From Salinisphaera sp. T31B1 (lineage in GTDB: Bacteria; Pseudomonadota; Gammaproteobacteria; Nevskiales; Salinisphaeraceae): 64,000 nt of DNA. The first letter of the stretch is position 1. Each line of letters opens with the position of its first letter. This document shows, in pieces, positions 2,345 through 27,537 of this stretch. The notes under the pieces are model-generated. The model saw only the letters and a program-made list of their open reading frames with translations. It had not been told where the DNA came from and did no database searches. Position numbers and translations under genes: made by a program. The stretch lies in the NCBI RefSeq assembly GCF_040361275.1, contig NZ_APNH01000001.1:868001-932000 (forward strand), written 5' to 3'.

Positions 2345-2348
<4 letters not shown>
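1551..2348 (-). CDS. Exported DUF3299 protein of the zinc-linked ABC operon
   Basis: This 265-residue protein starts with a clear signal peptide (MKRAARRLAGALGLALLMG, cleavage near VLA-D). The C-terminal half resembles DUF3299: GWATLMQ, then RLAGYMLPI, NPPVCFFH and a final strand VEGRLAGET. The start at 2348 overlaps the permease stop in an ATGA, so translation is coupled; the frame is open further upstream, but that part only shadows the permease gene. The order ATPase, FtsX-like permease, DUF3299 matches a Pseudomonas operon (PA4064-PA4066) that I recall as induced by zinc starvation. It is probably periplasmic; biochemical function unknown. Confidence 0.8.
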
Positions 2349-3642
<1,294 letters not shown>

Positions 3643-3646
<4 letters not shown>

Positions 3647-4290
3647 GTCGCCACGCCATCGGTGCCGATCGTCAGCCGGCGTTTAAAGCGATCGGCGAGT
3701 CGGTGATCGTGCGTGGTGACGATAAGCGCGGCGCTCTCGGCTTCGGCACGCTCGATAAGCAAAGTGGCGACGCGCGCGGCGTTGGCATCGTCGAGGCTTG
3801 AGGTCGGCTCGTCCGCCAGGATCAGACTCGGCTCGTTGACAAGCGCACGGGCCAGGGCAACCCGCTGACGTTGGCCCCGACTGAGCTGCGCCGGGAGGCA
3901 GGGTTCGTACGCTGCAAGCCCGACGCGCTCGAGTGTATCGGTGATTCGGCTTGGATCGGGCGGCAGCCCGGCCAGATAGCGGGCCAGTGCGAGGTTATCG
4001 CCCACCGATAAGGCGCCAAGCAGATGCAGATTCTGATAGACCAGCCCGATATGACGTCCGCGAAAACGATCGCGCACGGCCTCGCTCATTCCGCCGAGCG
4101 GCTGTTCGCGGACGCGAATATCACCCTGTGTGGGCAGCAGTACACCGGCCAGCAGATGAAGCAGCGTGGACTTACCGCTTCCTGAAGGTCCGAGAACAAC
4201 GAGTTGTTCACCCGCGGCAACCTTGAGCTGCGGAAGTCGTATCACCGGCTCGCGGGCATAACAGTGGACGATATCGCGGGCGCAAAGCAT
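3643..4290 (-). CDS. ABC transporter ATP-binding protein (MacB/LolD type)
   Basis: This 215-residue ATPase has Walker A GPSGSGKST (near residue 35), signature LSRGQRQRVALARAL, and Walker B LILADEPTSSLDD. The R in place of the second G of LSGGQ is common in this family. It is the first gene of the three-gene operon and overlaps the permease by 4 bp. It should power the FtsX-like permease downstream. The 15-bp palindrome at 4308-4322 lies just upstream of its ATG, suggesting operon control there. Confidence 0.93.
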
Positions 4291-4307: not shown

Positions 4308-4322
4308 TTATAGATGCTATAA
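4308..4322. promoter_or_regulatory. Perfect palindrome upstream of the ABC operon, candidate operator
   Basis: TTATAG and CTATAA form a perfect inverted repeat around ATG, 18 bp before the ATPase start, in an AT-rich patch. The half-sites resemble Zur or SmtB-type boxes, but the spacing does not match the usual Zur box. The regulator is not identified. Confidence 0.5.
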
Positions 4323-4385
4323 CGTTACATTCTCGTGCTGGAAAAGTCGCGTTCGATGAACGCGGTCCACGCACGCTTCAGGCCG

Positions 4386-4409
4386 GCCCGGGCGTCGTGA
4401 CGCCCGGGC
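4386..4409 (-). terminator. Hairpin downstream of the zinc sensor gene
   Basis: GCCCGGGCGTC and GACGCCCGGGC form a perfect 11-bp stem with a 2-base loop (4 bases in practice), 27 bp after the stop at 4436. There is no T-run, so it is a weak terminator candidate or an mRNA 3' end stabiliser. Confidence 0.45.
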
Positions 4410-4435: not shown

Positions 4436-4792
4436 CTAGTTCACGACTTCCAGCGGGCCGTGATCGTCGCAGTGATCGCCGTGGGGATGGTGCAGGTGGC
4501 CGTCGACGAGATAATCGATATGGTCGCCGTGCGGCACGGCTTCGTGGCCGCAACCCGGGCCATGTGTATGCGACGCGTCATGGCCATCGCAATCATGCGT
4601 CGGCGTGCATTCGTCCGGATTCTGCGCCGATATCTCGATCACGTGCTCATCGACATGATCTTTGTGTGGATGGTGCAGATGCCCATCGTGCAGATAATCG
4701 ACGTGGTCGCCGTGACGCACCCCGGTGTGTTCGCATTCCGGGCCGTGCGTATGCGGATGGGGCTGGTGCTGGTCGTGACTGCATTCGGTCAT
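4436..4792 (-). CDS. His-rich zinc-binding protein with two tandem modules, nested independent start
   Basis: ATG 4792 is preceded by CAGGAG at a 6-base spacing, a strong ribosome site, so a separate 118-residue product is likely besides the fusion. It holds two copies of a roughly 35-residue module: GPECEHTGVRHGDHVDYLHD and GPGCGHEAVPHGDHIDYLVD, each followed by GHLHHPH and an acidic His end. Close relatives are small cytosolic proteins found beside zinc regulators, sometimes misnamed zinc transporter permease; there is no membrane segment here. Likely roles are zinc buffering or handing metal to the sensor. It shares its frame with the upstream ArsR domain. Confidence 0.75.
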   Translation of the reverse strand: MTECSHDQHQPHPHTHGPECEHTGVRHGDHVDYLHDGHLHHPHKDHVDEHVIEISAQNPDECTPTHDCDGHDASHTHGPGCGHEAVPHGDHIDYLVDGHLHHPHGDHCDDHGPLEVVN

Positions 4793-5194
4793 GTGAGTCT
4801 CCTGATTGGAAGGGTGATGTGTCGTTCGCGCACTCGATCGGCGCGAGCTCGTCGCCTCGGTTGAATGCTCGAGGGCTGCGACGACCAGCTGCAAGACATG
4901 GTCGTCGGTCAGCCGGTAGTACATGTGCTTGGCCTCGCGGCGACGCTCGACCAACCGGGCGGTGAGCAACAACTTCAACCGCGCCGATATCGTCGTGACT
5001 TTCTGATCCTCGAGCGCTGCCAACTCGGTGACACAGATCTCACCGCCGGCAAGGCGGACAAGCAATTGCAGCCGATCCGGGTCTGCCAGCGCTTTGAACA
5101 TGCCGGCGGCCAACGAAAGATCGGCGTCGACCGGCAGGCTGGCAGGCGCGGGATCGACATGGTGATCGCATGCTGCACTCTGGATGACAGTCAT
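4436..5194 (-). CDS. SmtB/ArsR-family zinc sensor fused in frame to a His-rich zinc-binding module
   Basis: The 252-residue frame has two parts. Residues 25-115 are an ArsR/SmtB winged helix (FKALADPDRLQLL, then VTTISARLKLL as recognition helix and the KHMYYRL wing). The last helix carries D97-x-H99-x10-H110-x2-E113, the exact pattern of the SmtB alpha-5 zinc site. N-terminal C9, H11 and H12 plus C54 could form a second site. From residue 135 the frame continues without a stop into a His-rich module normally encoded as a separate small protein. A good internal ribosome site precedes residue 135. Start 5194 is chosen by domain length; its ribosome site is weak and the candidate operator lies just upstream. 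Confidence 0.8.
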   Translation of the reverse strand: MTVIQSAACDHHVDPAPASLPVDADLSLAAGMFKALADPDRLQLLVRLAGGEICVTELAALEDQKVTTISARLKLLLTARLVERRREAKHMYYRLTDDHVLQLVVAALEHSTEATSSRRSSARTTHHPSNQETHMTECSHDQHQPHPHTHGPECEHTGVRHGDHVDYLHDGHLHHPHKDHVDEHVIEISAQNPDECTPTHDCDGHDASHTHGPGCGHEAVPHGDHIDYLVDGHLHHPHGDHCDDHGPLEVVN

Positions 5195-5203
5195 TTGATT
5201 TAC

Positions 5204-5229
5204 ATCATTGCATGAATTGATGAAATGAT
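5204..5229. promoter_or_regulatory. Candidate operator of the SmtB-like sensor
   Basis: Half-sites ATCATTGCAT (5204-5213) and ATGAAATGAT (5220-5229) are inverted repeats matching at 9 of 10 positions around the 6-bp spacer GAATTG. The site ends 10 bp before the sensor ATG at 5194, suited to autorepression relieved by zinc. AT content contrasts sharply with its surroundings. Confidence 0.65.
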
Positions 5230-5438
5230 AGAGCGAACCCTCAGCGCTGTGCAAGTGTTGGCGGCTCGCTACAGGTGGCCGCCTGGCCGGCGTCACTCGT
5301 TATTCGAGCACGGCTTGTCCGCCCTGAAGGATATGAAGGCTGGCCGTTAAAGAGCGCGATCGCCGCCGACATCGCGGGACGTTCCGTCGAACTGTCTGTC
5401 TCGTTCCGGCATTCGAGCGGACGGTCGCTGCGACATGC

Positions 5439-26457: not shown

Positions 26458-26958
26458 TCAGTCGCTGCGATGCTGCGAACAGGCTTCGCAGATACCGCCG
26501 ACTTCGATCGTCTCGTGGTCGATGGCAAAGCCCGCCCGACGCGCCTCGGCGGCGATCGCGGCATCGATCGGCTGGCTGGCGATCTCGGCGACGCGCTCGC
26601 ATTGGCGACAGATCAGGAATTTCGGATGGCCGGACTCGTGGGGCGCATCGCAGCCGATGAACGCGTTCAGCGATTCGATCTTGTGAATCAGCCCCGCGTC
26701 GAGGAGAAAATCCAGCGCGCGATAGACCGTGGGCGGCGCGGCGTTGCCGCGCTCGGCGCTGATCGCGTCGAGCAGATCATAGGCCTTGGTCGGGCGATGG
26801 TTGTCCCAGATCAGCTCGAGTACGCGCCGGCGAATGGCGGTCAGGCGCAGGCCCCGCTGGGCACATCGAGCGTCTGCCCGTGCCAGTGCATCGGCGATAC
26901 AGGCCGAATGATCGTGTCCGCGGGCGTCGAATACCGAAGCGTTGGCGTTCTCAGTCAT
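26458..26958 (-). CDS. zur: Zinc uptake regulator Zur (Fur family)
   Basis: The 166-residue protein has the Fur fold: helix LRLTAIRRRVLELIW, recognition helix APPTVYRALDFLLDAGLIHKIE, then the Zur-typical LNAFIGCDAPHESGHPKFLICRQCERV with the structural CxxC, and a final CEAC. HKIESLNAFIGC favours Zur over Fur. With zinc bound it represses uptake genes. It lies 42 bp after merC on the same strand, and a Zur-box candidate stands upstream of merC, suggesting autoregulation. Confidence 0.92.
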   Translation of the reverse strand: MTENANASVFDARGHDHSACIADALARADARCAQRGLRLTAIRRRVLELIWDNHRPTKAYDLLDAISAERGNAAPPTVYRALDFLLDAGLIHKIESLNAFIGCDAPHESGHPKFLICRQCERVAEIASQPIDAAIAAEARRAGFAIDHETIEVGGICEACSQHRSD

Positions 26959-27465: not shown

Positions 27466-27503
27466 GAGCGGAGCTTCCCTGCTGGGCTGGGTTGGGCCAG
27501 AGC

Positions 27504-27516
27504 GTTAATATATAAC
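27504..27516. promoter_or_regulatory. Candidate Zur box between merC-zur and the PCu(A)C gene
   Basis: GTTAATATATAAC matches the 13-bp core of the gammaproteobacterial Zur box (GTTATA-N-TATAAC) at 11 positions, and the right flank continues with ATTT as in the consensus. It lies 39 bp before the merC start and 22 bp before the PCu(A)C start, so it could control both directions. Confidence 0.65.
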
Positions 27517-27537
27517 ATTTGGAAAGGAGTGGGCGAG

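Follow-up and report, generated by a model that had tools for sequence, protein, structure and literature searches.

Zinc sensors of the SmtB type are textbook switches, and in Synechococcus the zinc repressor SmtB is paired with the metallothionein SmtA, a cytoplasmic zinc binder under SmtB control. On the uptake side, zrgABCDE is outlined as a Vibrio zinc uptake operon (PMC9820375). In the stretch of Salinisphaera sp. T31B1 DNA analysed here (contig NZ_APNH01000001.1; 64,000 nucleotides, hereafter “the window”), an SmtB-type sensor and a His-rich protein lie in one open reading frame. The reading we consider probable is that of an autoregulated two-gene zinc unit with a lost gene boundary, in which the loss of a stop codon is tolerated and both a fusion and a free buffer are made.

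Sensor and His-rich protein in one frame

From 5194 to 4436 the minus strand holds a single open frame of 252 codons, running from ATG 5194 to a TAG at 4438-4436 with zero internal stops. An ArsR/SmtB sensor is followed in it by a 16-codon linker and then by a His-rich module, internally duplicated and with a start of its own:

4841..5194, minus strand: ArsR/SmtB sensor part, 118 codons, from ATG 5194 to the codon preceding the former stop
4856..4906, minus strand: alpha-5 site D97-x-H99-x10-H110-x2-E113, read from the codon table
4838..4840, minus strand: CGA codon at the position of the relatives' sensor stop, from the DNA alignment (TGA in G003, TAA in G006, TGA in G004)
4793..4840, minus strand: linker of 16 codons (48 bases), former intergenic spacer, from the DNA alignment and codon table
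4799..4804, minus strand: internal Shine-Dalgarno sequence CAGGAG, exactly 6 bases 5' of ATG 4792-4790, from the codon table
4436..4792, minus strand: His-rich module or nested ORF, 118 codons plus TAG, with two repeats, from the codon table and self-alignment

A first-pass annotation had claimed an SmtB-type sensor with a complete alpha-5 site (D-x-H-x10-H-x2-E), a stop-free ArsR frame leading into a duplicated His-rich module, CAGGAG 6 bases before an internal ATG at 4792, and products of about 27 and 13 kDa. The frame is indeed there, on the minus strand (the strand had been left unstated); the motif is present at 4804-4799, before ATG 4792-4790, and the calculated masses are 27.8 kDa for the 252-residue fusion and 13.1 kDa for the 118-residue nested product. 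The claimed capacity for both products agrees with a single frame that includes a nested start with a kept ribosome site.

The sensor belongs to the ArsR/SmtB metalloregulators, its winged-helix domain scoring above curated cut-offs when the whole frame is searched (Pfam HTH_5, 25.6 bits against a cut-off of 22; NCBIfam HTH_metalloreg, 75.3 bits against 55). SmtB itself (1r1t) is its closest solved relative by sequence (E 7.5e-15), and the alpha-5 site is intact (D97/H99/H110/E113); aligned to SmtB, the motif sits in the sensor's last helix, residues 98-122 in an AlphaFold2 model of the fusion. That model has a folded sensor, a flexible linker and a folded His domain, the linker being of low confidence (pLDDT under 50 at residues 129-133) and predicted to be flexible.

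The module has 28 His and 6 Cys in 118 codons and is internally duplicated: its two halves align over 37 residues with a score of 175, whereas 500 shuffles reached 93 at most. Modelled by AlphaFold2, it has two predicted beta repeats (mean pLDDT 86.3, pTM 0.80); a search for PDB relatives found none. It matches no Pfam or NCBIfam family. Identity with an SmtA-like metallothionein was considered and rejected, given 28 His versus only 6 Cys and this lack of a family match. Relatives are numerous: a scan of named genomes gave at least 594 pattern matches, 529 of the matches listed encode a relative, and the best 80 loci were taken. Among these 80 family members there was no NCBIfam match at E 0.01 and a single, marginal Pfam match (E 0.0099). 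The family is widespread, without a convincing Pfam or NCBIfam match, and is predicted to be a folded beta protein, possibly with a new fold. A profile search placed an ArsR gene directly upstream at 44 of these best 80 loci.

Loss of the sensor stop, and fusion elsewhere

An open linker is by itself unremarkable: given the window's composition, a run of 16 random codons lacks a stop with P ~0.65, and is both open and correctly phased with P ~0.22. The notable feature is rather a stop that is missing by comparison with relatives. At E 1e-5 the His module is found in 6 of 14 genomes of the genus, only partially in G004 and G009, and not in the other 8, making the pair patchy. In all five other same-genus genomes with at least part of both, sensor and module each have a frame of their own. 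At its end the sensor reads ...SVSR-TGA in G003, ...SSR-TAA in G006 and ...LSR-TGA in G004, and the window has CGA at the same codon. Since the relatives' stops are at a homologous codon and their frames separate, the fusion goes back to a stop lost in the window lineage, which has joined two operon partners across former intergenic DNA. In G006 and G004 the spacer is out of phase; in G003, which is 80% identical to the window over 252 residues, it is in phase with no other stop, and G003 is thus one substitution short of fusion. In a class sample of 369 genomes, the module was found at E 1e-10 or better in 12, and a frame longer than 157 residues in the window only.

CGA differs from TGA by one base, and with five same-genus relatives keeping the two pieces apart, an assembly or base-call error at 4840-4838, the true genome having a stop there, has to be weighed. 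It is rather improbable: the assembly has 9 contigs and is 100% complete, and fused frames are found in seven other genomes, three of them in one clade, although these are no voucher for the base here.

Two of the relatives are peculiar in other ways. G004 (L007 1884-2144) keeps the sensor, but its His-rich gene is a disrupted copy that follows the family for 20-30 residues and then diverges; G009 (L011 1872-2036) has a short His protein of ~54 residues with a single repeat. The disrupted copy and the absence of the module from 8 of 14 genus genomes would fit a fusion that marks the onset of decay, with a sensor impaired by its new tail and a pair on the way to being lost. Decay and a tolerated change overlap as readings, so that the odds of the two are not strictly exclusive, but as an explanation of its own decay is very improbable. 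Both halves keep their motifs, a promoter and palindrome are present upstream, and dN/dS (NG86) is low in both the sensor and the His part (0.12-0.14 for the sensor against two same-genus genes), as an average over the whole divergence that is blind to recent change.

The same fusion was found in seven other genomes, including a clade of three species, so the arrangement occurs elsewhere. A scan with the His module as query gave three fused frames among the 44 ArsR-adjacent loci of the best 80: Xanthobacteraceae bacterium 501b, a Burkholderiales MAG and a Planctomycetia MAG. Searches around each, covering at most 30 loci apiece and therefore liable to miss fused frames, gave differing pictures. 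In the family of 501b, 27 of 248 genomes match (at most 11 candidates scored per genome) and, among the loci taken, the fused frame was found only in 501b; the full-length matches closest to it among those scored, 73% and 72% identical, both have TGA. An alphaproteobacterial sample (385 genomes, 4 with a match, at most 7 candidates scored per genome) yielded no further fused frame among the loci taken. Around the Burkholderiales MAG 2 of 200 genomes match, one of them fused; the planctomycete search gave matches in 40 of 95 genomes, with at least three species fused; and a class sample of 397 genomes (71 with a match, at most 6 candidates scored per genome) gave at least two further fused genomes.

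These loci were brought together in a census of 103 distinct adjacent pairs out of 211 loci, the remainder being dropped by filters (both E <1e-5, sensor match reaching model position 85, His match starting before 40, gap of -60 to 300). Fusion is seen in eight of them, spread over Gamma-, Alpha- and Betaproteobacteria and Planctomycetia, and 95 are separate; since 60 of the 103 come from fused-query searches, among them the three fused loci that the scan with the His module had turned up, 8/103 is an upper-side estimate and no clean frequency. The exact alpha-5 pattern is present in 98 of the 103 sensors, all eight fused ones included. Among the separate pairs, 21 of 95 are in phase, 19 of these with a single intervening stop. 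Most pairs examined have kept the stop, which suggests that the two proteins are normally made separately. Fusion as the usual state is not borne out, the nearest relatives having two genes, as do 95 of 103 pairs; with this, half of the refuting condition named in the first-pass annotation applies, that of separate frames in close relatives, the other half being a long product that escapes detection.

All eight fused pairs have an internal ATG with a Shine-Dalgarno sequence of 4 or 5 matching bases, and 87 of the 95 separate pairs have one of 4 or more bases, the script having chosen the best-motif in-frame start in both groups alike. With the second gene's start site kept in every fused case, these have the appearance of real, mostly recent fusions. 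On a quick maximum-likelihood tree without bootstraps there are six changes between fused and separate, at least five of them forced by starred branches; some may be losses besides gains. Only 5 of 500 label shuffles gave as few as six changes, so the fused label is somewhat clustered: the fused rows are five singletons and one clade of three planctomycete species.

One possibility is that the fusion has been selected, the tethered His domain setting the repressor's zinc threshold in cis and internal initiation supplying free buffer. Recurrence in Gamma-, Alpha- and Betaproteobacteria and Planctomycetia could be so explained, as could the predicted build of a folded sensor, flexible linker and folded His domain, and the three-species clade, in which the open frame, the internal SD-ATG and a linker of 18-19 residues are all retained. 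We nonetheless think this unlikely, and similarly doubtful that the cis effect would work by competing for zinc or by feeding zinc to the alpha-5 site. The tree rows nearest the window, 501b, the Burkholderiales MAG and the two planctomycete singletons are all separate, and the eight linkers (27-63 nt) differ in length and sequence. Within the clade the linkers (54, 57 and 57 nt) are highly divergent in sequence, and all are open; the flanking parts have dS 0.85-1.85, and a frame open at such divergence could be a sign of selection. A neutral simulation without indels, however, gave P 0.31-0.60 for two further descendants keeping an open linker, and neutral drift suffices for the clade's open linker. 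One clade member, G428 (L176), lacks any ATG, GTG or TTG start in the first 57 codons of its fused frame, a further point against selection; the operator-like palindrome upstream of it is kept. Most likely, then, the fusion is a change specific to its lineage that is tolerated, and not a sensor design favoured by selection.

Regulation and working of the unit

Candidate control elements flank the gene on both sides:

5207..5226, minus strand: operator-like palindrome ATTTCATCAATTCATGCAAT (ATTTCAT-N6-ATGCAAT), touching the -10 hexamer, from a genome pattern search
5225..5254, minus strand: sigma-70-like promoter TTGCAC / TATCAT, from a scan (which reports TGCACA-17-TATCAT) and the upstream alignment
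4342..4409, minus strand: two hairpins 3' of the gene, the second followed by ACUUUU, a possible transcription end, with a folding z of -3.5

The promoter scan found one site against 0.5 expected from shuffles, and the terminator scan did not list the hairpins at 4342..4409. At up to one mismatch the palindrome pattern occurs once in the window's own genome and once in that of G006, where it precedes the sensor; it was not found in the genomes of G003 and G004, whose upstream sequences align with only partial similarity. Conservation across five aligned upstream regions is partial. The simplest reading would be local autoregulation through the putative operator.

In the tolerated-change reading, the ancestral state, seen in most relatives examined, would be an SmtB-type repressor gene with a His-rich protein gene close behind it that has its own start. 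When zinc is scarce, the repressor would occupy the palindrome at the promoter of its own gene; binding of zinc to the alpha-5 site would release it, and the unit would be transcribed. The His-rich protein then made would bind and buffer cytoplasmic zinc, as SmtA does under SmtB. With the repressor stop now a sense codon and the 48-base spacer open and in phase, ribosomes would read on into the His-rich protein, giving a 252-residue fusion, and translation from the ribosome site kept at 4799-4804 should continue to supply the free 118-residue protein, though internal starts could be silent under read-through. It is from the stop loss, the conserved parts, the recurrence and the kept internal start that we infer zinc binding, repression, both products and buffering.

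A more elaborate model would make this a nested gene encoding a tethered sensor-buffer and a free buffer, their ratio setting the zinc threshold, a state that would have arisen several times over, each time independently, and been conserved by one planctomycete clade or more; we think it on the unlikely side. Whichever applies, the natural set of fused and unfused sensors would allow a direct test of whether a sensor's threshold moves when a metal buffer is tethered to it.

Putative zinc surroundings and described systems

Several frames and sites elsewhere in the window are of putative zinc type:

3643..4290, minus strand: ABC ATPase of a zinc-uptake-like unit (best NCBIfam matches LolD and FtsE, both below cut-off)
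2345..3646, minus strand: FtsX/MacB-type permease with a long His/Asp/Glu loop, from a Pfam/profile match
4314..4330, plus strand: Zur-box-like palindrome before the ABC unit, with 3 mismatches to the consensus
26458-26958, minus strand: Zur-like Fur-family gene (124.9 bits, below the cut-off of 167)

Against the Zur consensus, the window has two Zur-box-like matches where 0.12 are expected; a Zur-box-like site at 27502-27518 is near the Zur-like gene. A DUF3299 protein adjoins the ATPase and permease. A COG0523/ZigA-like GTPase frame lies at 62-1102 on the plus strand (219.6 bits, below the cut-off of 600); it matches its profile only from position 74, and its start is therefore perhaps outside the window. 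Over the permease's His loop a ZrgA match reaches 14.3 bits, below its cut-off of 27.4, and no separate ZrgA was identified among the window frames scanned. The ABC unit may be a zrg-like zinc importer with the His loop within the permease itself.

Among 127 proteins scanned as nearest neighbours of the His-rich family (from crude frame calls, at most one neighbour each side) were 8 of the Fur/Zur family, 5 ZIP, 4 CobW and 3 ABC-3 proteins. These neighbours, with the zinc-type surroundings of the gene in the window, make zinc the likely metal, and judging by composition and context the His-rich protein probably binds it. Often found near zinc genes, the family may well represent a class of bacterial zinc buffers or chaperones that is as yet undescribed; a description of it was looked for and not found. 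A literature search, judged by titles and the starts of abstracts among the hits listed, gave no paper on a sensor/His-rich fusion, and a search for three motif strings gave no paper containing them in the library covered.

Among described systems, the unit near the fused gene resembles Vibrio zrgABCDE, as outlined in PMC9820375, in pairing an ATPase with a MacB-like permease with a His-rich loop; it differs from that outline in having the His loop in the permease, a DUF3299 protein and probably its own promoter. For the fused gene itself, a Pantoea ananatis plasmid (NZ_CP099537.1) carries a metalloregulator ArsR/SmtB gene directly followed by a “hypothetical protein” of this His-rich family, but as two separately annotated genes. 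With SmtB-SmtA of Synechococcus the locus shares an ArsR-family repressor with the alpha-5 pattern D-x-H-x10-H-x2-E beside a small, presumed zinc-binding protein; SmtA, however, is a Cys-rich metallothionein, whereas the window partner is His-rich, predicted to be a beta protein, downstream on the same strand, and fused.
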